From: Pectinatus haikarae | Lineage (GTDB): Bacteria > Bacillota > Negativicutes > Selenomonadales > Selenomonadaceae | DNA length: 64,000 nt | Assembly: GCF_015732185.1 (NCBI RefSeq) | Contig: NZ_WIQM01000016.1 | Span: forward strand, 248,001 to 312,000 | Direction: 5' to 3' | Shown here: one piece after another, positions 15,234-26,575 of the stretch | Numbering within the stretch: position 1 is the stretch's first letter | Layout: the number at the start of each line of letters is the position of its first letter | Made by a program: the position numbers and the translations under genes | The notes under the pieces: model-generated | The model's database searches: none | Told to the model about the DNA's origin: nothing | The model's input: only the letters and a program-made list of their open reading frames with translations

Positions 15234-15722
15234 ATGTTCAAAACAGCCATAATAACCGCCAGTGACAAGGGCTTTGCAGGACTCAGAGAAGACTTGAGCG
15301 GACCTTTAATAAAACAACTGCTGGCAGATACTGTTTATGATATTGTCAGCTATGAAATTCTATCTGACGATAAGGATTATCTGACAAAACGTTTAAAAGA
15401 ATTATGCGATACTGATATATCCCTTATCCTTACCACCGGAGGCACCGGATTTTCGCCGCGTGACAATATGCCCGAAGCCACAAAAGCGGTCATAGAAAAA
15501 GAAACCCCCGGCATACCGGAAGCGATGCGGGCCTACAGCATGAAAATAACTCCGGCCGGTATGCTGAGCAGGGCAGCGGCAGGAATAAGGAAACAAACAC
15601 TCATAGTCAATCTTCCGGGCAGCCCCAAGGCTGTGAAGGAATGTCTCGGCTGTATCCTGCCTTCATTGGAACACGGCTTAAAAATAATGTACGGTCTGGA
15701 CAGTGAATGTGCCCGTACCTGA
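15234..15722 (+). CDS. mogA: molybdopterin adenylyltransferase (MogA/MoaB family)
   Basis: Adenylates molybdopterin before molybdate insertion. The 162-residue single domain shows TASDKGFAGLREDLSGP, LILTTGGTGFSPRDNMPEAT (the GGTG nucleotide-binding element), MLSRAAAGIRKQTLIVNLPG and SPKAVKE. RBS is CAGGAGATGA. It is the last gene of the moaC operon. Its stop is followed by AATAAAAAAATCTGC, one half of a hairpin whose other half lies beyond the island at 25557. Confidence 0.94.
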   Translation: MFKTAIITASDKGFAGLREDLSGPLIKQLLADTVYDIVSYEILSDDKDYLTKRLKELCDTDISLILTTGGTGFSPRDNMPEATKAVIEKETPGIPEAMRAYSMKITPAGMLSRAAAGIRKQTLIVNLPGSPKAVKECLGCILPSLEHGLKIMYGLDSECART

Positions 15723-15729
15723 CTTTTAA

Positions 15730-15744
15730 AATAAAAAAATCTGC
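15730..15744 (+). repeat. left half of a split terminator hairpin
   Basis: AATAAAAAAATCTGC follows the mogA stop. Its exact complement, GCAGATTTTTTTATT, lies at 25557-25571 after the xdhC-like stop. Brought together, the two halves would make a 15-bp bidirectional terminator between convergent genes, so the island appears to have been inserted into this hairpin. Confidence 0.65.
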
Positions 15745-15761
15745 AGAAATGATATGAGTTC

Positions 15762-15796
15762 GAGAGTTCTCCAAGTTTTATGTAAACGCTAAAAGC
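15762..15796 (+). repeat. IS256-type terminal repeat, left outer copy
   Basis: A 35-base segment starting GAGAGTTCTCCAAG and containing TGTAAACGCTAAAAGC. It matches, in inverted orientation and with three differences, the segment at 25522-25556. The sequence style (TTTNTGTAAAC) is that of IS256-family ends. It lies about 58 bases from the stop codon of the transposase remnant at 15854, as the end of that element would. Confidence 0.75.
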
Positions 15797-15853
15797 TAAT
15801 ATAAATTTAATAGTAATATATTTTAAGGGTATTGCTTGTAAAAGTGATGCCCT

Positions 15854-16146
15854 TTAAACATTTCTTTCTAAAAGGCGTTCTTCAAAATAGATATCTAGCT
15901 GTGCCCTTATTTGACTCCAGTCTTGTCGCCGTCCAGTCCATTTTTTAGTAATGTCCATCATTGCTAAATACAACATTTTTAGGAGGCTGTCGTCTGAAGG
16001 GAAAATCGTCCTGGATTTAGTGACTTTTCTAAGCTGCCTGTTAAAGCCCTCTATGGTATTTGTAGTATAAATGAGTCGCCTAACGGCGAGTGGATATTTA
16101 AAATATGTTGATAAAACAGCCCATTTTCATGCCAGGATTTGAGACT
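15854..16146 (-). pseudogene. IS256-family transposase, C-terminal remnant
   Basis: Reading the minus strand gives roughly the last 95 residues of a Mutator/IS256 transposase: WAVLSTYFKYPLAVRRLIYT followed by TNTIEGFNRQLRKVTKSR, IFPSDDSLLKMLYLAMMDIT, and KKWTGRRQDWSQIRAQLDIY up to the stop at 15854. The segment includes the N-x-IE-x-x-N motif that carries the catalytic glutamate. One base is missing near 16124 (the expected KSWHEN-WAVLS junction changes frame), and everything upstream, including both catalytic aspartates, is gone. It joins directly to an SDR fragment near 16145. Confidence 0.88.
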
Positions 16147-16306
16147 TATTCATAGTCTGTTCATCAGCAAGATCGCCGTCAAAATAATCATTATATTGTT
16201 TATCTATGATGCAGATCTTAACATCATTATTTTTAAATGAATCAGCAATTATTTTTCCAATACCATTTGCTGCACCAGTTATAATCGCAATTTTGTTTTG
16301 TAATAT
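16127..16306 (-). pseudogene. short-chain dehydrogenase, N-terminal remnant
   Basis: The minus strand encodes about 59 residues of an SDR: IAIITGAANGIGKIIADSFK (TGxxxGIG cofactor motif), then a beta-alpha unit (VKICIID) and DGDLADEQTMNK, ending at TGA 16127 where transposase sequence has replaced the rest. The expected start codon reads ATA (16306-16304), 15 bases after GAGGAG, so the gene is dead at both ends. It differs from the intact SDR at 16814. Confidence 0.82.
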
Positions 16307-16319
16307 GATGGCAGTAATC

Positions 16320-16813
16320 TCCTCTTTTATTTTACTTTTTAATTTTAGAAAAAAAGCTACAGATATCGTTTGTATAATATCATGACTTTTCGGGTGGACG
16401 GCACAGACACGCCAATTACAACATCTAGGTTAGGGGAGCCTTGCATCACAGTAGCAACTGAATGAAAATGTGATCAGCATTTAGGATGAGAAGAACGCGG
16501 GGCGCGGGGCGATCCAGCAACTAAAAAAGCAAGGATAGTTTTTTGCCATCCTTATTTCTTATGGAGGCGTCCGGTAAGTGACTCGGCTACTAGACACCAG
16601 AAGTAGTATTCGACGTTTTTCTCGATAACTTTGATATCGTTTGATATCGCTGGTATTTTACTAAGGTATTCAATTTGCTATTGCAATTTAAGAAAATGTA
16701 CTTTATATTAATATTTTTAGAATGTTTTGCATTATTAAATTAGCAAGATAGTAGACCAATCTAAGCAAATATATTATGTATAAATTGTGCTTAATAGAAA
16801 AAGAGGAATATTT
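16320..16813. other. intergenic stretch with unassigned coding-like fragments
   Basis: No intact gene. On the minus strand two short frames look coding-like. One of about 36 residues ends at a TAG near 16355 and contains VMQGSPNLDVVIGVSVPS; another of about 40 residues ends near 16560 and contains EKNVEYYFWCLVAESLTGR. A small hairpin (AAGGAT/ATCCTT) followed by T on the minus strand lies at 16529-16554. Part of 16395-16600 is richer in GC than the flanking island. I cannot assign either fragment. The last 150 bases before the SDR are very AT-rich. Confidence 0.35.
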
Positions 16814-17578
16814 ATGAAAATTGCATTGGTTACAGGTGCTTCTAGTGGTCTTGGTAGAGCATTTGTTGAATTGATTGATAAAAAACATTTTGTTGATGAA
16901 ATATGGGGAATTGGGCGTTGCGAAAGATCTTTGCAACAGATACGTATATGTACTAATTTTCGGCCAATTGTATGTGATATTACTAAAATACAAGATATTA
17001 AGAAATTAGATCAAATACTACAGATGGAAAAACCAGAAATTAAAATTCTTATTAATTCTGCTGGGGCAGGTAAATTTGGCTTATGGAAAAACATTTCCTT
17101 GCAAGACAGTATAAATATGATTGATCTTAATTGTAGAGGAACTGTACTGGTTACACAAATTAGCATTCCTTTTATGGTGAGAGGTGGACATATTTTAGAA
17201 ATTTGTTCTACCGCTGCATTTCAGCCATTGTCGTATTTTAATATTTATGCAGCAACAAAAAGTTTTTTATATAGTTATAGTTGTGCTTTGCATAAAGAGT
17301 TGTCTTGTAATAATATATCAGTCACCGCAGTATGTCCATATTGGATAAGCGATACTAATTTTATTAATGAAGCAAAAAAAAATGGAGATAAAAATTGCAT
17401 AAAAAATTTTCGCTTTGCTTTAAATACAAAAACGGTAGCGTCAAAAGCATTAAGAGATGCAATGCAAATGAAAATCGTTTCGACTCCGGGTGTTATAAGC
17501 AGTTGGCAATATATTTTAAGTAGGGTCGTTCCAGATAAAATAATTATGAAATTTTGGGACTGGTTTCGTAAATTATAA
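16814..17578 (+). CDS. short-chain dehydrogenase/reductase
   Basis: A 254-residue classical SDR with a Rossmann fold: TGASSGLG at residues 7-14 for NAD(P), D61 in VCDITK, NSAGAG (NxAG motif) around 86-91, the catalytic Ser in EICSTAAF, and YAATKSF (YxxxK) around 153-159. The C terminus is basic and aromatic (MKFWDWFRKL), which may touch the membrane. The ATG follows AGAGGAAT. Substrate unknown. No operator copy lies immediately upstream, so it may or may not belong to the MarR regulon that begins 60 bases further on. Codon use is strongly A/T-rich. Confidence 0.85.
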   Translation: MKIALVTGASSGLGRAFVELIDKKHFVDEIWGIGRCERSLQQIRICTNFRPIVCDITKIQDIKKLDQILQMEKPEIKILINSAGAGKFGLWKNISLQDSINMIDLNCRGTVLVTQISIPFMVRGGHILEICSTAAFQPLSYFNIYAATKSFLYSYSCALHKELSCNNISVTAVCPYWISDTNFINEAKKNGDKNCIKNFRFALNTKTVASKALRDAMQMKIVSTPGVISSWQYILSRVVPDKIIMKFWDWFRKL

Positions 17579-17608
17579 ATAAAATAGTAATTATTATAAA
17601 ATTAAAAG

Positions 17609-17654
17609 TTGACAAATATATTAAGTGAATATAAAATTAATTTGTCAATGACAA
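17609..17654 (+). promoter_or_regulatory. marR promoter with operator
   Basis: TTGACA (17609-17614), 17 bases, TAAAAT (17632-17637), followed at once by the palindrome TTGTCAATGACAA (17642-17654) covering the likely start of transcription. The identical layout recurs at 19649-19694. This suggests autorepression by the MarR protein. Confidence 0.78.
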
Positions 17655-17727
17655 TAAATTTAAGTGTACCTGTTTAAAAGTAAAATTAGTTTGAAAGTTA
17701 TTATAATAAATATATGGAGATTTTACA

Positions 17728-18153
17728 ATGTTATATGAAATAGATACAATTGGTTTTTTTATTAGTAGAGCGCAGGCAAATTTGAGAAAAAGATTTCTTA
17801 AAAATTTACGGTCTTACGATATTACCCCTGAAGAATGGGTTTTGTTTGTGAGGCTTTCAGAAGAAGTGGGGATTTCGTTAACGGATTTATCTAAAACATC
17901 ATTAAGAGATAAGCCGTATACAAGTCGCCTTATTGATAAAATGGAAAAAAAAGGTCTTATAAGAAAAGAAGAAAGTCAAAATGATAAACGTTCGTCTTTA
18001 ATTTATCTAACTGAAAAAGGAGCTATAAGTAGAGAAGAAATTAATTTAGTTATTATAGAACTGAATCGTTGGGAAATGGAAGTGTTTAGTAAAAAAGAAA
18101 TTGAAGAACTAAAATTTTTATTAAATAAATTATATGAACACGTAAAATTTTAA
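17728..18153 (+). CDS. MarR-family transcriptional regulator
   Basis: A 141-residue winged-helix regulator of typical MarR size. Helices for dimerisation flank a DNA-binding core (about 35-105): TPEEWVLFVRLSEEVGISLT, DLSKTSLRDKPYTSRLIDKM (recognition helix), then the wing KEESQNDKRSSLIYLTEKG. RBS is ATGGAG. Five copies of one 13-bp palindrome lie upstream of, after, and between the following genes, making this protein the obvious candidate to bind them. MarR proteins usually release DNA on binding a phenolic or other lipophilic ligand, which fits an export operon; the ligand is unknown. Confidence 0.92.
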   Translation: MLYEIDTIGFFISRAQANLRKRFLKNLRSYDITPEEWVLFVRLSEEVGISLTDLSKTSLRDKPYTSRLIDKMEKKGLIRKEESQNDKRSSLIYLTEKGAISREEINLVIIELNRWEMEVFSKKEIEELKFLLNKLYEHVKF

Positions 18154-18175
18154 GTTATAAAACTTAAAATTTTTT

Positions 18176-18212
18176 GCCAATATAGTTGTCATAGACAATT
18201 ATATTGGCAAGG
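18176..18212 (+). terminator. hairpin after marR with embedded operator
   Basis: Arms TTGCCAATATAGTTGTC and GACAATTATATTGGCAA (one G-T wobble) around ATA form a 17-bp stem just after marR. At its centre is the operator variant TTGTCATAGACAA (18186-18198). T-rich sequence follows a few bases later. It could end the marR transcript and also bind the regulator in front of the activase remnant. Confidence 0.6.
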
Positions 18213-18243
18213 TATTTTTTGATTTTTAGCGAGGTGTTTTGAA

Positions 18244-19421
18244 GTGAATAATGTGCCTAAAGTGGGGCTGGATATTGGATCGACTACTATAAAATTGGTA
18301 ATACTTAATGAACAAAATGAAATTATTTTTAAAGACTATAGAAGACATTTTTCTAATATTCTTTCTACATTAAAGTCGTTAGTTGATATGGTTCATATAA
18401 AATTTCCCAAAAGGATGCTTGTTGTAACGGCTACAGGATCTGCGGCTATGGAATTAGCAGAAGTTCTCCAGATATCATTTACTCAAGAGGTTATAGCGTG
18501 TACCAAAGCAGTAAAAACATTTATTCCAGAAACGGATACTGTTATTGAATTAGGAGGGGAAGATGCTAAAATAACCTATTTGAAAGACTCGTTAGAGCAA
18601 CGAATGAATGGTGTATGTGCTGGAGGAACCGGCGCATTTATTGATCAAATGGGCATTTTATTGAATACGGATGCAAATGGCTTAAATGACTTAGCTAAGG
18701 AATATAAAAATATTCATTCAATTGCATCTAGATGTGGTGTTTTTGCAAAAACAGATATTCAGGCTTTGATGAATGAAGGTGTGACAAAAGAGGATATTGC
18801 TGTGTCTATATTGCAAGCTGTGGTAAATCAGACGATTGGAAGTTTAGCACAGGGAAGGCCAATATCAGGTAATGTTGGGGTAATAATCAACTTGTTAATT
18901 TATTGGAAAAAGAAAATATGGAAATTATACTGCCAGAGTTATTAAATTTTTTTCAGTACTCAATATACGATAAGATAGTAGAACATGATTTATTGTCTGG
19001 TTCCGTAGGAGCAAAAATAAAAGCAAAGATTTTTATTAAAATATTAGATTTTTATCGTAAAAATATACAAAAAGCTCTTTTTAATAGTGAACGGTTTAAG
19101 CCTTCGTATACAATAGAAGAATTAGCTGATTTAGCTAAGAAGTATTTATCATTAGAAAATATGACAGGGGAAGGGTGGTTATTAACAGCAGAGATTATAG
19201 CATTATTGGAAGAGGGGGTAAGTAATATTATTTGTGTACAACCGTTCGGCTGTTTACCAAACCATATTGTTGCAAAAGGAATAATAAAGAGGCTGCGTAA
19301 AGATTATCCTAAAGCAAATATTCTTGCTTTAGATTATGATTCAGCTGTAAGTGAAGTAAATCAAGTAAATCGTATAAAGCTTATGATTGCTATAGCAGAT
19401 GAAAATTTGAGTTTAGGATAA
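18244..19421 (+). pseudogene. 2-hydroxyacyl-CoA dehydratase activase-type ATPase (BadF/HgdC large form), internally deleted
   Basis: The first part (18244 to about 18885) encodes an ASKHA-fold activase domain: GLDIGSTTIKLVIL, LGGEDAKI, and the two cysteine motifs NGVCAGGTGAF and SRCGVFAK that hold the bridging [4Fe-4S] cluster. After GRPISGNVG the homology stops. A different frame (from about 18893) then gives the C-terminal end of the large activase family: LPELLNFFQYSIYD, TGEGWLLTAEIIALLEEG and IICVQPFGCLPNHI. Intact large members run to well over 1,000 residues, so most of the middle is missing and the join is out of frame. Two partial proteins of 233 and up to 172 residues remain. Confidence 0.82.
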
Positions 19422-19640
19422 GAGCTTTGATTGGTTATAAAAATTTATAGATTAGATATTGAATATAGAATGTAGAATAAAATCAAATAAATGAATCTTG
19501 AGTTTAAAAAATTAACTTAAAAGAAAAATAGTCTCAAGGAGATTTGAATTAGGAGCTGGATTTAGAAAATTTTTTTTAGATGTATTTAGATAATGTTAAA
19601 TCTAATAAATGTTTGCTTACCTTGTGGTAAAAATATAGAT
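19422..19640. other. AT-rich spacer
   Basis: Between the activase remnant and the next operator-promoter I see no gene, only AT-rich sequence with scattered stop codons. It may be further decayed coding sequence. The spacer from 19422 to the next start at 19808 totals 386 bases; its second half is the regulatory region listed separately. Confidence 0.4.
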
Positions 19641-19648
19641 TGGAAAGA

Positions 19649-19694
19649 TTGACAAATATAATAAGTTTGTATAAAATAAAATTGTCAATGACAA
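19649..19694 (+). promoter_or_regulatory. promoter with operator before the FMN-reductase remnant
   Basis: TTGACA (19649-19654), 17 bases, TAAAAT (19672-19677), then TTGTCAATGACAA (19682-19694). Spacing and sequence copy the marR promoter almost exactly. Confidence 0.75.
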
Positions 19695-19744
19695 CAATAT
19701 TCTTATCATACTTTATGTGATTTTAAAGTGGTATTTTGATATAG

Positions 19745-19757
19745 TTGTCATTGACAA
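19745..19757 (+). promoter_or_regulatory. operator TTGTCATTGACAA
   Basis: Second palindrome upstream of the FMN-reductase remnant, 51 bases after the previous one. Its right half also reads TTGACA, followed at 17 bases by TACAAA, so it may overlap the -35 of a second promoter. Confidence 0.68.
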
Positions 19758-19807
19758 AATGTTTTGATGCGTTTACAAAATTATTTGGTAGAATTGGAGG
19801 GGAAATG

Positions 19808-20261
19808 ATGAAAATTGTAGCATTTATAGGTAGTCCGCGTGAAAATGGAAATACAGCAAAATTAGTAAATACTATTTGTAAAGAGGCCGAATCTAATGGG
19901 CATGAAATCGAAATATATAATTTATCAGCTATTAGTAATAATGGTTGTATAGCATGTAATGCATGTCAATTGAACATGGTGAGGGGGTGTGCTATTGATG
20001 ATATTATATCTCGTATTTTTTCGAAAATGCAGATAGTAGATTTGATCATTTTAGGAACACCTATTTATTTTGAACAAGTTAGTGGATTAACAAAAAATTT
20101 TATAGATAGAATGCGTATGTTTTTGGATTATAATACAAAAACATCAATGCTAGCTGAAAAATATAGCAAATATCATAGCTGGTAATTTAATAGCTGAAAA
20201 TGATATTTTAAAACGAACAGATTTTTTGTTGGCAGCAAAGCGCTTAGGACATGATTTATAA
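19808..20261 (+). pseudogene. NADPH-dependent FMN reductase/flavodoxin-like oxidoreductase, internally deleted
   Basis: The first frame (19808-20185) encodes 125 residues of an iron-sulfur/flavodoxin-like reductase: KIVAFIGSPRENGNTAKLVN (FMN phosphate loop), CIACNACQLNMVRGCAIDDI (CxxCxxC-type segment) and IILGTPIYFEQVSGLTKNFI DRMR in sequence. It then stops. The last bases in another frame give IIAGNLIAENDILKRTDFLL followed by AAKRLGHDL and a stop, the usual C terminus of the family. A middle piece of some dozens of residues is therefore missing and the join is out of frame. The ATG follows GGAGGGG. Operator-controlled promoters remain upstream. Confidence 0.78.
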
Positions 20262-20335
20262 GATAAAGTACCGTCATTTATTTTAGCAAGTAAAGGACGT
20301 AAAAATAAAAAGAGCACTTTTTTTTAAAATATTAG

Positions 20336-20348
20336 TTGTCATTGACAA
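20336..20348 (+). promoter_or_regulatory. operator TTGTCATTGACAA before the export operon
   Basis: Fifth copy of the palindrome, 90 bases upstream of the HlyD gene. TTGACA is contained in its right half and could serve as a -35; I see no good -10 at the right distance. Confidence 0.65.
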
Positions 20349-20437
20349 TTAATACTTAAATATAAAGAAAAAATTATTTTTGATGAAGTATATATTTAAG
20401 TTTTATCGGAATGCATGGATTTTAGGAGGATGTAGTA

Positions 20438-21571
20438 ATGGAAGTTACAAAAAAGACAAAGCAAACTTGTATAATTTTTTTCGGATTATTAGTAATAGGC
20501 ATTGCTGGACTCGTTTTGGAAGGACAAGATGCAATAACGGTTGCTTCAGCAAAAAAAGCAGGAATTCTTACATCAGAGCAAGTGAATGTTGCTTTTCAGA
20601 GAGTTGGTGGCCGGATAATAAAAAAAGGTGTTGAAGAATCGCAGCTTGTTAAAAAGGGCGATATCTTAATGGAGCTGGATTCGAAGGATACAGATTTAGC
20701 GATACAACAATTAGAAACACAGATCGCAGAATTTGATGCAAAAATTAAACAAAACAGTAATGGCATAGATATTAATTATAAAAAGACAGATACTAAACAA
20801 CAACAAATGTATCATGAAATTGAACAACAGAAAAATGCATTAAATGCAGCAGAAGCTTCATTTACAGAAAAAAGTCTTAATAATGATCGTATGAAGAGCT
20901 TACTGGCATCGGGGGCAATATCGGAAGCGGAATATGATGCAGCATTAATGAGCTATAATGTTACAAAAGCGAGTGTAGGACAGCAGCGTAGTGCATTGGA
21001 AAAAATGGTTGCAGGTAGTTCAGAAGAAGAAAAAATGGCATTATTATCAAATGGACGTGCTGATGGAATGCATTTAGATATAATTGATAATGATAGGAGA
21101 GATATTGATAATCAACAGAATGTTGTTGCTCAATCAATACATCAAAGAGAAAATTTAATAGTTCAATTGGAAATGAAGAAAGTAGAAAAAGAACGATTGA
21201 CATTGAGAGCACCTGAAGACGGAAAAATTTTAAAGGTGATTGTGAAGGAAGGCGAACAAATAGCACCAGGAAGCCCTGTAGTTTTGCTGGAAAGTAGCCG
21301 TTGGTATTATGATATTTATCTTAGTGAAGATACAATACATAAACTTTCTGAAGGTAGTGAAGTGATTGGACATGTTAAGTCAATTAAAGAGCCTGTTAAA
21401 GGCAACATACGTTATATAATGGCTGCACCGGGATTTGCTGATTTAAAAATGAGTCGAGAAAAAGGCCAGGCTGATTTGACTAGTTTTCAGGTAAGAATAT
21501 ATGTTTCGCCAATGGAAAATTTGCTTCCTGGGATGACAATTGAGGTGAATGAAAATGAACTCCATTCGTGA
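20438..21571 (+). CDS. HlyD/EmrA-type membrane fusion protein
   Basis: Periplasmic adaptor linking an inner-membrane transporter to a TolC channel. The 377-residue protein has a short cytosolic start, one membrane segment (about 11-29), a biotinyl-lipoyl half (GRIIKKGVEESQLVKKGDIL), a long coiled coil (about 85-240, rich in Gln/Glu/Lys), the second lipoyl half (LRAPEDGKILKVIVKEGEQI) and a beta-barrel end. AGGAGGATGTAGTA precedes the ATG. It overlaps the permease gene by 17 bases, and TolC follows, so the three form one export system. A MarR operator lies upstream. Confidence 0.9.
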   Translation: MEVTKKTKQTCIIFFGLLVIGIAGLVLEGQDAITVASAKKAGILTSEQVNVAFQRVGGRIIKKGVEESQLVKKGDILMELDSKDTDLAIQQLETQIAEFDAKIKQNSNGIDINYKKTDTKQQQMYHEIEQQKNALNAAEASFTEKSLNNDRMKSLLASGAISEAEYDAALMSYNVTKASVGQQRSALEKMVAGSSEEEKMALLSNGRADGMHLDIIDNDRRDIDNQQNVVAQSIHQRENLIVQLEMKKVEKERLTLRAPEDGKILKVIVKEGEQIAPGSPVVLLESSRWYYDIYLSEDTIHKLSEGSEVIGHVKSIKEPVKGNIRYIMAAPGFADLKMSREKGQADLTSFQVRIYVSPMENLLPGMTIEVNENELHS

Positions 21572-22727
21572 TGAATTGGAATTTATTCTTTCTGGTAGAA
21601 CTATACCATACAACAAAGTGGCAGTTGTTTTGATGTTGGTTATTACATTGATTTTAGGTGCAATGATTAGTAATAATACCATTTTAGAAGGAAAAATTGC
21701 TGTTATTGATATGGATAATTCTAAATATAGTAGAGATCTTATTGCAAAAATGAATGCCTCTGAATTTATAAAAGTGACAGAAGTCATTCATTCTCCGGTG
21801 GCAGCGGAGAAGCTTCTTTATCATGGGAAAAATTTAGGCGTAATATATCTGCCGCAAGGTTTAGAAGAAGCACGATGGAAAGGTGATAGTTCTATACATA
21901 TAGGAACTTTATATGATCGGACAAATTCAGCACAATGTGCTGAATTGACAATAGCTGTAAATGAAATTATTCAAGGAGAAAACGGAGAAATTGGCGGTCC
22001 GCGTATTGGAAAAATGGGATTAAGTTCAGAGCAAAATGAGGCTATTGTGGCGGGAATTGGAATTAGCGATAGACAGTTGTTTAATCCAACAGGATCTATG
22101 GCAGATGGAATTGTAGTAGGCTTGTTATATTTTCTTTCTACCATTATATATACTCTTGTTGCTTTGCAAATTATTGCGCATTTGAAAATTCGCAATAAAT
22201 GGGAAGAAGAAATTCTTTCCGGGAATCCATTTCGTTTGTTGGGAAGATTAATTCCATATGCAGTAATGTTGATCTCTGTATTGATTTTTGGAATGGCAAT
22301 ACTGAGATGGGTTCAGGATTTTAGATTTGCAGGGAATATTTTGGCATATATGTTTAGTCTGATTATTTTTGCAATGTCTATGGGGATGGTTGGATTGATA
22401 TTTGGATGGTCAGCCAATGATCCTAGTGATGGATCTAGTAAAATGATTCTGTTAGTTCCTCCTGGATTTATTTTTGGTGGGATGACATTAGCAAGAGCTT
22501 ATTTGCCTGATTGGGTTGCAATTGTTTCTAAACTTTGGCCTCTTACATGGCAATTTGATTTTTTGAGAGATTTTGCTATTCGAGGGGCATTACTGCGTGA
22601 TATGTATATTCCATATTGTGAATATATTTTATATATGTTGGTGATTGCAGCAATTTTTTTCGCAAAATACTTTAAGGAGTACAACCGACTTATAGAAAAC
22701 AAAAAATGTGAGAATCCAATTTTATAA
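21555..22727 (+). CDS. ABC-2-type transporter permease (YhhJ-like)
   Basis: A 390-residue inner-membrane protein with the ABC-2 exporter layout: one N-terminal membrane segment (about 22-40), a large periplasmic domain (about 45-170) and five further segments (about 180-385), including VVGLLYFLSTIIYTLVALQI and the conserved LVPPGFIFGGMTLARAYLPD before the last helices. I use the ATG at 21555, six bases after GAGGTGA; an ATG at 21549 touches that site. No ATP-binding subunit is encoded in the operon as it stands; it may be the gene cut at 24149-24205, or act in trans. Confidence 0.87.
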   Translation: MNSIRDELEFILSGRTIPYNKVAVVLMLVITLILGAMISNNTILEGKIAVIDMDNSKYSRDLIAKMNASEFIKVTEVIHSPVAAEKLLYHGKNLGVIYLPQGLEEARWKGDSSIHIGTLYDRTNSAQCAELTIAVNEIIQGENGEIGGPRIGKMGLSSEQNEAIVAGIGISDRQLFNPTGSMADGIVVGLLYFLSTIIYTLVALQIIAHLKIRNKWEEEILSGNPFRLLGRLIPYAVMLISVLIFGMAILRWVQDFRFAGNILAYMFSLIIFAMSMGMVGLIFGWSANDPSDGSSKMILLVPPGFIFGGMTLARAYLPDWVAIVSKLWPLTWQFDFLRDFAIRGALLRDMYIPYCEYILYMLVIAAIFFAKYFKEYNRLIENKKCENPIL

Positions 22728-22810
22728 TAATACGGAACGTATAATTTTTGTTAAAGTATTTAGTAAGAAAAATTAAGCTTAATTACGAAAAAATGAATGC
22801 AGGTGAAATG

Positions 22811-24100
22811 ATGTTAAAGAAAAAATTTACTACAATTTGTTTGATGGGATTGTTTATAGGGTGCTCAGTACACGGGTTTGCTGCTGAAAAAGGCACTGCT
22901 TTAAACTTAAATGAATGTATAGATAAGGCGTTGAAACAAAACGAACAAATAAATGTGGCTGCTCATGGATTGGAGGCGGCGAAATGGCAATTAGCAGAAG
23001 CGAAGGGAGCTCGAGAATTCAACTTAATTTTTTCGCATACAAGTTCGAAAATTGGTGGAGCATACTGGAAAGTTTTTTATATTGAAGATGATCCATCAAG
23101 TTACTTTATCAATAGTTTTACTGCTTCTATGCCGATTTATACAGGCGGGCGTATAGAAGGTGGGATTGATCAGGCGAAACTTGGTGTTGAAATTAGCGAC
23201 TTGAGTTTGCAAAATACAAAACAGCAAATTAAGTATCAAGTAACTCAGGCTTATTACATGATTTTGGCTTGTGGAAACTATGAGGACGCCAAAGCAGAAG
23301 CGGTAAAACAATTGCAGGAACATTTAAAAAATGTAAATGAACAATTTGCGGTGGGGGGTGTTGCAAGATCAGATATTCTTCGTTCAGAAGTTGCATTGGC
23401 AAATGCACAACAAGAACTTGTAACAGCAAAAAATAATACAAGGATAGCGAAAGCTTCATTTAACAAATTGCTCGGAAATCCTATACAAAATGATGTATCA
23501 ATTATAAATGATATGCAGTATGCACAATGTGATTATGTATTGGACGATTGTATAGTATATGCACTTGAACATAGGCCAGATTATTGTGCAGCAAAAAAAG
23601 GGATTTTACAGGCGAAAGATGGAATAAAAATTGCGGCTGCAGGAGAGAAGCCAAGTGTTGCGCTTATAGGGAGCTATGGAACTTATGATACGAAATTCAA
23701 TGAATTTGATACAAAAGAATGGCAGGCTGGTATTAATATTAGCTTGAATATATTTGATGGAAATATTACAAAGGCAAAGAAAAAAAAAGCAAATGCTAAG
23801 TTAGCACAGGCAGAGGCGGGAGTAAAAGATGAGACAGCTTCGGTAGAATTTGAAGTGCAACAAGCATATCTTAATATGAGAAAGGCAGAAAGTAATATTA
23901 CGACCAATAAGGCTGCCGTAGCAAAAGCTCAAGAAGATTTTGTGCTTGCAGGAGCAAGATATAGTGTTAATTTAGGAACTAACTTAGATGTTGTTGACGC
24001 ACAAGTTGCCTTGACAAATGCCAAAACCTCATACATAGGGTCACTTTATGACTATAATGTTAGTAAAGCAGCGCTCGAACGTGCTATGGGAAAAATTTAA
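22811..24100 (+). CDS. TolC-family outer membrane efflux protein
   Basis: Outer-membrane channel of the export operon. The 429-residue protein has a signal peptide (about 1-25, KKKFTTICLMGLFIGCSVHG then FAA), and two structural repeats of the OEP family, each with long amphipathic helices. NLNECIDKALKQNEQINVAA opens the first, and NVSKAALERAMGKI ends the protein. Short beta-strand segments (SFTASMPIYTGGRI and WQAGINISLNIFDGNITKAK) sit where the barrel is expected. AGGTGA precedes the ATG. Adjacent ATGs at 22808 and 22793 are alternatives. TolC proteins require an outer membrane. Confidence 0.9.
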   Translation: MLKKKFTTICLMGLFIGCSVHGFAAEKGTALNLNECIDKALKQNEQINVAAHGLEAAKWQLAEAKGAREFNLIFSHTSSKIGGAYWKVFYIEDDPSSYFINSFTASMPIYTGGRIEGGIDQAKLGVEISDLSLQNTKQQIKYQVTQAYYMILACGNYEDAKAEAVKQLQEHLKNVNEQFAVGGVARSDILRSEVALANAQQELVTAKNNTRIAKASFNKLLGNPIQNDVSIINDMQYAQCDYVLDDCIVYALEHRPDYCAAKKGILQAKDGIKIAAAGEKPSVALIGSYGTYDTKFNEFDTKEWQAGINISLNIFDGNITKAKKKKANAKLAQAEAGVKDETASVEFEVQQAYLNMRKAESNITTNKAAVAKAQEDFVLAGARYSVNLGTNLDVVDAQVALTNAKTSYIGSLYDYNVSKAALERAMGKI

Positions 24101-24148
24101 TGATAATAGAATAAAGTAGATCGCTTGAAAAATAAAGGAGAATTTTTT

Positions 24149-24205
24149 ATGAAAAACATAAAAACTCTTAGTATTAAGCGACAGACGCAGGATAGTGTCA
24201 AATGA
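24149..24205 (+). pseudogene. fourth gene of the export operon, truncated by the IS
   Basis: AAAGGAG followed by ATG at 24149 opens a frame MKNIKTLSIKRQTQ that runs straight into the IS at 24191 and stops at 24205. The good ribosome site and 48-base distance from tolC indicate a real fourth gene of which only 14 codons remain. Too little is left to identify it. Confidence 0.6.
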
Positions 24206-25521
24206 AGTTCGCAAAAACCATCGGCCGTTCCAACATCAGGTGTTCCGCTGTCGTTCTTCCTGAATCAGTTGAAGAATCTCCGGTTTTATATAGCAATGGC
24301 CATCGGACTATTCTTCACCATACTCAATCATATAGGTCGTGACTAAACGAATATACGAGTCCAGGCTAGGAAAAATGCCAACGACAGCTGTACGCCGCCG
24401 GATTTCCCTGTTCAGTCGTTCAAGGATATTGGTCGAAGCAATTTTTCGCGAGTCGATCCGCTTGAAGTGATAAAACTGAAGCGAACTTTCAAGACCGGAT
24501 TCTAATATGCCGACAGCTTCCGGAAAGGCAGGCTCTTGTTCGTCCATAAGCGTGTAAGCATAGGCTTTGGCGCTGTCATAATCCGGCTGTAGCCAGATTT
24601 GCTTTAGTCGCTCGGCAAACTTCGCTTTTGTCTTTGATGAAACTTTTGCCAGGATATTTCGCATGAAGTGCACTTTGCAACGTTGCCAACTGCAACCGAT
24701 AAACGATTCTTGCACTGCTTTCACAAGGCCTTTGTGAGCATCTGAAACAACTAACCAAACGTCCTGTACACCGCGTTGTTTTAGATCTTCAAATACGGTC
24801 TTGTATGTTGCTTCGGATTCTTCTTGCATCGGCTCGATTGCCAAGATGTCACGTCGGCCGTTTTCGTCCAGTCCAATAACCACCGATACCGCCATGTTTT
24901 GCACGCAACCGCCATTGCGAATTTGCTCATATAGAGAATCCACCCATAAAACCGGATATGTCTTATTAAGCGAACGAGTGCGAAAGGCCGCTACTTGATC
25001 ATTTAGTTCTTTGGTGATCTGCGATACTTGACCCCGTGAGATTGAATCAATGCCGAGACCTTTCGCTAGTTTTTCAATCTTGCGCGTGGATACGCCGTTG
25101 ATGCACGCTTCTTGAATCACGTTTAATAGCGCTGCTTCAGAGCGCTTTTTCTCACTGACAAAGAACGGAATGTATCCGCCTCAGCTTCGGGACAAACAGA
25201 TACATCGTTCCCATTCGCGTATCATACCGTCGAACTCGATAGCCAGATTGGTAGCCGCAACGCTCGTCCGTACGCTCAGATTTTACTGCATTGAGCTTGG
25301 CGCCGACTTCAACCTCCATCAGTTTTTCACAGAGCCATTTCAGCATGGAAAGCATCGGATCGTCTTCGGACATGAATTGTAATAGCATTTTTTCTAGCGG
25401 TAGGTTAGAATTAGGATAAATCATCGATTTCAACTCCTTTGAGGTTTGCTCAGCACTTACCTTCCTCGGAGAGAACGATGGTTTTCCTTTTGCCTTTTTG
25501 CGAACTTAATTATATGCTATC
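24191..25521 (-). mobile_element. IS256-family insertion sequence (degenerate)
   Basis: About 1,331 bp, the usual size for this family. The ends are imperfect inverted repeats of about 27 bases, both starting GATAG and sharing AAGTTCGCAAAAA (left 24204-24216, right complement 25497-25509). The flanks show no matching 8-9 bp duplication (left AGACGCAG, right GCTTTTAG), so the copy has been rearranged since insertion. Its right end abuts another IS-type terminal repeat at 25522. Confidence 0.82.
24236..25433 (-). pseudogene. IS256-family transposase with frameshift and in-frame stop
   Basis: The N-terminal frame (25433-25152) starts MKSMIYPNSNLPLEKMLLQF and reads to VPKLRRIHS, where one base has been lost near 25180 (the conserved continuation GGYIPFFVSEKKRSEAALL follows in the next frame). 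The second frame then carries the DDE core: VLWVDSLYEQIRNGG, LVVSDAHKGLVKAVQ with the CSWQRCKVHF motif, and ILERLNREIRRRTAVVGIFP. A TAG at 24308 replaces an expected Trp codon (EE-stop-SDGHCYIKPEIL); the frame stays open to a natural end at 24236. With two lesions it is very probably inactive. Confidence 0.88.
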
Positions 25522-25556
25522 GCTTTTAGTGTTTACACAAAACTTGAAGAACTCTC
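25522..25556 (-). repeat. IS256-type terminal repeat, right outer copy
   Basis: Inverted partner of 15762-15796 with three mismatches in 35 bases, placed between the end of the degenerate IS and the split terminator half. It may be the surviving end of a second copy of the element whose transposase remnant lies at 15854. Confidence 0.75.
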
Positions 25557-25571
25557 GCAGATTTTTTTATT
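25557..25571 (-). repeat. right half of the split terminator hairpin
   Basis: GCAGATTTTTTTATT, the perfect complement of 15730-15744. It lies directly after the xdhC-like stop and next to the IS-type repeat. As it stands it lacks a partner arm, so the xdh operon may read into the island. Confidence 0.62.
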
Positions 25572-25579
25572 ATTGTCCC

Positions 25580-26575
25580 TCAACAAACGGCTTCAAACAG
25601 GACTTTTACATGCCCGCCGCATATCATCCCCAAATCACTCGTGTTCTGCAGACCCAGATCATATTCAATGACAGCCGCCTGTTTGCTGACCGCTATTTCG
25701 GCGCATTTTTTCTGAGCGGCAAATTCGACAGCACCGCCGCCTATCGAGCCGAACACTTCTCCGCTTTCGGTCACCAGCATCTTGCTGCCTGCGCCGCGCG
25801 GTGATGAACCGTGCTTATCTATTATAGTTGCCAACGCGGCGTTCTGCTTTAACTGCCCGGCGGATATCTTTTCCATGGCAGCAAATACATTATTCTGCGA
25901 TCTGTCACCAATAAATGCGCTTTTCACTTCAATAATTTCTGCCAAAATACTCACGGCTATTTCTTCCGGTGTAATTGCGCCTATCGGCACTCCTATAGGT
26001 GCGTGCACCTGCGCCAACACCTCCTTTGAATATCCTTCCTGCTCAAGTTTATGCATGGTGATGCCGACTTTTTGCCTGCTGCCTATCATTCCCGCATAGC
26101 GATAATACTTCTTGGCCAAAACCGCTGACAACGCCCGGAAATCATCTCTGTGTCCTTTTGTCACAATTACATAATAGGCATTATCGCCAAAATCGCGCTG
26201 TAAGGCAGCTTCGACATCCTCGACATATCTTTTGGCATGCGGGAATCTTTCCTGTGTAACAAATTCGGCCCTGTCATCTATCACTGCTGTATCAAATTCA
26301 AGGAATTTCGCCAGCCTGGCAATAGCGCAGGATACATGCCCTCCTCCCGCAATAACGATTATCGGTATATCATTTATACTTTCTATAAAATATTTTTCTT
26401 CAGCTTCGGTAAAAACAAACGGCAATTTCTTTTTTCCGGCTTTAAGCTCCATTTTTTTTAGTTGCTCTCTGCCGATCAATTTTTTCTCGCCTATTTGTGT
26501 ACTGAGCGAAGTCATTGTATAAAAGATTTTTTTCTTTTTATATAAAGCTAAAATTTCTTCATAAATTGCTTTCAT
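25580..26575 (-). CDS. XdhC/CoxI-family molybdenum hydroxylase maturation factor
   Basis: XdhC-type proteins bind sulfurated molybdenum cofactor and deliver it to xanthine-dehydrogenase-like enzymes. The 331-residue protein contains a Rossmann domain (about 70-200, IPIIVIAGGGHVSCAIARLA through YAGMIGSRQKVG) and the XdhC/CoxI domain with NAALATIIDKHGSSPRGAGS and EVFGSIGGGAVE (about 245-330). Here the Rossmann part comes first and the CoxI part last, the reverse of the usual order. RBS is GGAGG. It is the last gene of the xdh operon, 12 bases after the MocA-like gene. Confidence 0.88.
   Translation of the reverse strand: MKAIYEEILALYKKKKIFYTMTSLSTQIGEKKLIGREQLKKMELKAGKKKLPFVFTEAEEKYFIESINDIPIIVIAGGGHVSCAIARLAKFLEFDTAVIDDRAEFVTQERFPHAKRYVEDVEAALQRDFGDNAYYVIVTKGHRDDFRALSAVLAKKYYRYAGMIGSRQKVGITMHKLEQEGYSKEVLAQVHAPIGVPIGAITPEEIAVSILAEIIEVKSAFIGDRSQNNVFAAMEKISAGQLKQNAALATIIDKHGSSPRGAGSKMLVTESGEVFGSIGGGAVEFAAQKKCAEIAVSKQAAVIEYDLGLQNTSDLGMICGGHVKVLFEAVC

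Follow-up and report, generated by a model that had tools for sequence, protein, structure and literature searches.

A decayed composite-type island in the predicted mogA/xdhC terminator of Pectinatus haikarae, and a probable bias of its IS256-family element toward terminator hairpins

In Pectinatus haikarae, a 9.8-kb block, mostly AT-rich, separates a mogA-type gene from an xdhC-type gene, and just past each of the two facing stop codons stands one half of what looks like a single hairpin. How did this island come to lie there, and does its position reflect the target choice of the insertion sequence (IS) that bounds it? The locus is part of a window of 64,000 nucleotides (contig NZ_WIQM01000016.1, positions 248,001 to 312,000; G000:C1:248001-312000, G000 being the genome that carries the window), the whole stretch of DNA that was analysed, to which all coordinates without a contig refer. 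The reading favored here, with a probability of about two in three, is that the island is a decayed composite-type block bounded by two inverted copies of an IS256-family element, named IS A in this work, that it sits in the bidirectional terminator of mogA and xdhC, and that it reached this site through a preference of the IS A clade for stem-loops. The features of the site are:

15234-15722, plus strand: mogA/moaB-type molybdopterin gene, the left neighbor (open reading frame; Pfam MoCF_biosynth, 2.9e-31)
15730-15744, plus strand: left arm of the split predicted terminator hairpin, AATAAAAAAATCTGC (sequence; fold of joined flanks)
15745-15761, plus strand: upper stem and loop of the split hairpin, up to the element edge (fold of joined flanks; comparison with the hairpin of the congener G003)
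15762-15796, minus strand: right-end inverted repeat (IRR) of the left IS A copy (repeat and match analysis)
15762-16140, minus strand: 3' remnant of IS A (IS256 family), element bases 1036-1415 (blastn/tblastn)
24191-25521, minus strand: IS B, a second IS256-type element with 27-bp inverted ends (repeat analysis; open reading frames; related copy)
25522-25556, plus strand: IRR of the second, inverted IS A copy, the sole remainder of that copy (repeat and match analysis)
25557-25571, plus strand: right arm of the split predicted terminator hairpin (sequence; fold)
25580-26575, minus strand: xdhC-type gene, the right neighbor (open reading frame; Pfam XdhC_C, XdhC_CoxI)

Open reading frames (ORFs) and Pfam matches agree that the mogA-type gene (stop at 15722) and the xdhC-like gene (stop at 25580) are convergent, as a preliminary description of the sequence had it. 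Its other observations at the site hold as well: 15-base arms past both stops, the right one the exact complement of the left; inverted 35-base ends with three mismatches; and an AT-rich block between the halves, of about 25-37% GC (500-base windows, 16000-24000) in surroundings of mostly 40-50%. It needs one correction. The arms are placed asymmetrically, the right one touching the element end and the left one standing 17 bases away from it. The proposal that the two halves form one hairpin is borne out by folding: once joined, the flanks fold on both strands, at -16.1 kcal/mol (z -4.7) on one and -15.4 kcal/mol (z -5.6) on the other, with the 17 intervening bases as the upper part of the hairpin. 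The joined flanks contain a stem-loop with an A-tract before it and a T-tract after it, by which a bidirectional intrinsic terminator is recognized, and a 15-bp inverted match between two such short flanks arose in 0 of 20,000 mononucleotide shuffles. The prediction that the joined halves served as a bidirectional intrinsic terminator for mogA and xdhC is supported by these sequence features.

IS A is an insertion sequence of the IS256 family. The full element is 1415 bp long and is present in two copies elsewhere in the genome (G000:C6:320811-322225 and G000:C14:114276-115690), in which 19 of 26 end bases of the terminal inverted repeats match and the target duplication is 8 bp (8 or 9 allowed). 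Its transposase, of 422 residues, is of the IS256 type (Pfam Transposase_mut, 3e-117), and NCBIfam transpos_IS256 matches it at 4.5e-130, above the family cut-off. At the island, the left remnant (379 bp, 96.8% identical to a full IS A copy) encodes the last 90 residues of the transposase, and the right remnant comprises 35 bp only and abuts IS B. Both outer ends of the island are thus the IRR of IS A, inverted and intact, with both copies reduced to remnants, an arrangement by which composite transposons are identified. An 8-bp duplication bounding the whole island was sought and not found: the left flank ends ATGAGTTC, and the right flank begins GCAGATTT.

Both full IS A copies elsewhere in G000, once their empty sites are rebuilt, also split terminator hairpins, and for this reason the element's clade was tested. 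Relatives of the IS A transposase were gathered, their ends were set by terminal repeats together with the duplication, and the empty sites were rebuilt. Folding was measured over 52 nt around the duplicated bases, and a strong hairpin was one of -8 kcal/mol or lower. The clade was defined by a transposase at least 60% identical, an exact 8-bp duplication, and canonical ends, which gives 38 distinct sites after removal of repeats (the additional site L271 repeats L157). At 53/110 and 27/44 locus ids and at 7/9 viral loci tried (of 11), element ends could be located together with a duplication matching in 7 or more of its 8 bases, many of these loci being the same site fetched twice or having non-canonical ends; a plasmid search gave one record above 60% identity. 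Copies with 7-of-8 duplications (L074/L135, L123, L124, L213), copies at contig ends, and copies without recognizable ends were dropped; among these, L124 lies within a hairpin and L123 just beside one. The control set consists of 21 sites from other IS256 clades, 12 of them from genomes belonging to a family in which the IS A clade occurs as well; ends and duplication were found at 16 of 50 control loci. One control, L082 (-9.5), belongs to a looser control set and is removed by a stricter end rule, which in turn added L282.

Strong hairpins occur at 11 of the 38 clade sites, where random positions in the same flanks lead one to expect 1.55, and no draw out of 20,000 was as high. With an intergenic background only, the figures are 11/28 against 1.44 (again 0/20,000 draws), and with the two discovery copies removed, 9/36 against 1.46. 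Under the stricter end rule, other IS256 clades have strong hairpins at 0/21 sites (Fisher p = 0.004 against the clade); the slightly different set with the looser rule gives 1/21 (p = 0.03). An earlier control run placed 1/9 in hairpins, and divergent IS256 copies with exact duplications in G000 gave 0/3. Hairpins with a T-tract are found at L112, L073, L096, L114, L077, L159, L279, and L214. The last of these folds at -5.0 kcal/mol over 52 nt and at -24.7 kcal/mol over 90 nt; the 52-nt window overlooks such long-loop terminators, and sites of this kind were left uncounted. In the 15 sites drawn, the duplicated bases lie in the loop, in either arm, or in the T-tract, so their position is variable, and no target consensus is apparent by eye among the clade sites.

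Several clade copies outside the test count (L143, L154, L123, and G000:C3:150901) are not inserted within a strong hairpin but lie about 10-12 bases downstream of one.

Several results weigh against the favored reading. Twenty-seven of the 38 clade sites have no strong hairpin and 9/38 lie within ORFs, and for this reason the claim is limited to a bias: the IS A clade probably favors terminator hairpins, without strict specificity. The -8 kcal/mol threshold and the 52-nt window were picked once the first sites had been seen. With a lax stem-plus-T-tract rule, the clade scores 17/43 against 7.0 expected (P = 1.5e-4) and the controls 6/21 against 3.0, with no difference between them (Fisher p = 0.28); this detector, which covers about 16% of the flanks (7.0/43), was rejected as a measure. 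Strong hairpins at convergent gaps (6/13 clade sites; in 15 other convergent gaps, 10.3% of positions qualify; p = 0.001) become a weak argument when the Pectinatus discovery copies are left out (4/11, p = 0.02), and the background is just 15 gaps; survival in harmless gaps could therefore explain part of the pattern. Finally, the hairpins at the matching place in two congeners, G003 and G001, are unlike the window's halves in sequence, a divergence that may be as expected of fast-changing terminators.

The main rival is chance followed by survivorship. Insertions between convergent genes harm little, and such gaps are short and hairpin-rich, so that the survivors would look terminator-directed without any targeting. 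Convergent gaps indeed hold 17 of the 26 intergenic clade sites and likewise 6 of 11 control sites, and convergent contexts are overrepresented for several IS families including IS256, according to a published study (PMC9208149). The enrichment nevertheless persists within the insertion's own intergenic gap, where the rank of the sites is shifted to stronger folds (Kolmogorov–Smirnov p = 0.0004, n = 26; p = 0.0023, n = 24, without the discovery copies), the other convergent gaps are exceeded at the values just given, and the control clades reach only 0 or 1 of 21. The within-gap and control-clade comparisons reduce the weight of this explanation but do not eliminate it, and we regard it as unlikely, with a share of probability that still deserves to be taken seriously.

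Much less probable is that no shared terminator ever existed, mogA and xdhC having been brought together by the island or by a rearrangement and the arms being two separate features. The mogA and xdhC queries were run against 60 genomes including the window's own, four of them congeners (G001-G004). Both genes were found in only two of the four congeners, neither query matching G002 or G004 at E <= 0.001, and the hairpins of the two differ in sequence as noted, which is what this explanation has in its favor. In G003 and G001, by contrast, the two genes are direct neighbors that converge across 95 and 85 bp, and at the equivalent position in each gap there is just one hairpin (-33.1 and -23.1 kcal/mol, respectively, predicted over about 100 nt). 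Exact complementarity over 15 bases is, in addition, unexpected of unrelated sites, as the shuffles indicate. Beside the G003 hairpin, the window's right arm looks about 6 bases short at the element side, from which we infer a loss of about 6 bases. The IS copy of G001 and its flanks are those of Pectinatus brassicae DSM 24661 (L074, L135).

That the 15-base arms are an extended terminal repeat of the element, which the preliminary description had offered as its alternative and which their inverted order at both island ends would suit, has next to no probability left and is refuted by the other copies: all eight matches of the left 161 bases outside the island in its own genome begin between query bases 60 and 64, on GAGAG or directly beside it, and have different flanks, the full copies carry 8-bp duplications, 17 other bases separate the left arm from the element end, and the exact 15-mer was found only in four fetched loci, all covering the island site. 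IS A ends at GAGAG, and other copies start within 2-3 bases of it. This element end and the relatives' empty sites both favor the earlier suggestion that the island split a shared mogA/xdhC terminator; the relatives it had called for, with the two genes adjacent and convergent and a hairpin in the island's place, are G003 and G001, with the difference in hairpin sequence already described.

IS B has its inverted ends at 24191-24217 and 25495-25521, its transposase frame is broken into two ORFs (24308-25120 and 25152-25433), and a relative of 71% identity lies at G000:C6:389131-390410. IS B was considered as the bounding element and rejected: the outer 35 bases are the IS A right end, and the related copy aligns only to window position 25522, the first base of that repeat. 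IS B meets the 35-base IS A end with no base between them and has no flanking 8-bp duplication, so the right boundary of the island has probably been rearranged. Recombination between copies and adjacent deletion are among the causes of missing duplications named in one paper (PMC11708052), and each would fit the island's missing duplication. Elsewhere in the genome, an IS A end is itself the target of a divergent IS256-type element (L288, G000:C10:24000-30000), which is flanked by an 8-bp duplication, so that one relative is nested in the other.

Between the bounding elements, the island carries the following genes and gene remains:

16787-17578, plus strand: short-chain dehydrogenase (Pfam adh_short)
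17728-18153, plus strand: MarR regulator (Pfam MarR)
18244-19421, plus strand: remains of a large BadF/BadG-type CoA-enzyme activase (Pfam; collinearity with L299)
19745-20185, plus strand: NADPH-dependent FMN reductase, partial profile match (Pfam FMN_red)
20438-21571, plus strand: HlyD-type adaptor (Pfam HlyD_3)
21549-22727, plus strand: ABC-2 type permease (Pfam ABC2_membrane_3; 93% identical to a G073 protein)
22748-24100, plus strand: TolC-type outer-membrane efflux protein (Pfam OEP)

This foreign cargo is nearly identical, at about 90%, to DNA from a different genus within the host's family: contig G073:C25 is collinear with it at 83-94% DNA identity. Compared with its 1412-residue relative in G073 (L299), the activase gene has an internal deletion of about 3 kb that leaves two overlapping ORFs. 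In the four congeners, nothing matches the permease at E <= 1e-60. Palindromes resembling TTGTCAATGACAA repeat ahead of several cargo genes (17604-17657, 18170-18201, 19644-19697, 19724-19768, and 20320-20351) and are possibly operators of the island's MarR regulator.

IS A shares with the IS256 family at large its transposase family (Transposase_mut, PF00872), a length of 1.4-1.5 kb, imperfect terminal repeats, and an 8-bp duplication; the enrichment in terminator hairpins is a feature of the IS A clade. Group IIC introns prefer intrinsic terminator hairpins for insertion, as this clade probably does; unlike IS A, they are RNA-using retroelements without a DDE transposase or a target duplication. 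The preliminary description could name no case of terminator preference for this family, a point on which there are now data: the clade described here is enriched in hairpins. No report of such a preference in the IS256 family was found in a full-text search that mostly lacked subscription papers.

The nearest published precedent found is ISRm5, an IS256-family element of Sinorhizobium meliloti, likewise linked to palindromic extragenic DNA. Of its copies, 5/7 are associated with repetitive extragenic palindromic (REP) sequences, an association classed as type 2; the copies lie near or next to REPs, with no broken REP pieces at their ends (PMC1525189). In the IS A clade, by contrast, insertions split intrinsic terminators and duplicate bases that are part of the hairpin. 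The same paper lists type 1, REP-specific elements (ISPsy8, ISPa11, ISPpu9, ISPpu10, ISRm22, and ISRm19), assigns fixed-position REP insertion to members of families other than IS256, and notes that REPs often lie between convergent genes (PMC1525189). Type 1 elements resemble the IS A clade in inserting within palindromic DNA and differ in that every copy occupies the same fixed point of a repeated sequence, whereas the clade has non-repeat targets and strong hairpins at 11/38 sites, with a position that varies among the 15 sites drawn. Insertion into extragenic palindromes is therefore a known theme; what is new here is an IS256-family clade that tends to land in terminator hairpins.

A plausible course of events can be outlined for the island. 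IS A would have reached the site because its clade prefers, as targets, the stem-loops of terminators that lie between convergent genes. The cue might be extruded hairpins or their supercoiled setting, recognized or exploited by the transposase, rather than a sequence: given that the duplicated bases can be in the loop, an arm, or the T-tract and that no consensus is evident by eye, we infer that structure or setting is the likelier cue. Adjacent deletion could then account for both the missing duplication and the approximately 6 bases apparently lost. By an alternative route, two IS A copies might have inserted into one terminator, after which recombination exchanged the middle.

A more general proposal can be made only tentatively: that a clade of IS256-family transposases picks its targets by DNA structure, namely hairpins that extrude at intrinsic terminators, chiefly the bidirectional kind that lies between convergent genes, and that composites of such elements deliver foreign genes there and destroy the terminator in the process. 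If this is true, structural targeting would let such an element land safely whatever the genome. Should the bias be real, it would give a DDE transposase a simple rule for sparing its host without a sequence-specific target, and such elements and their cargo would be predicted to reshape transcription termination between convergent gene pairs of gut and anaerobic Firmicutes.

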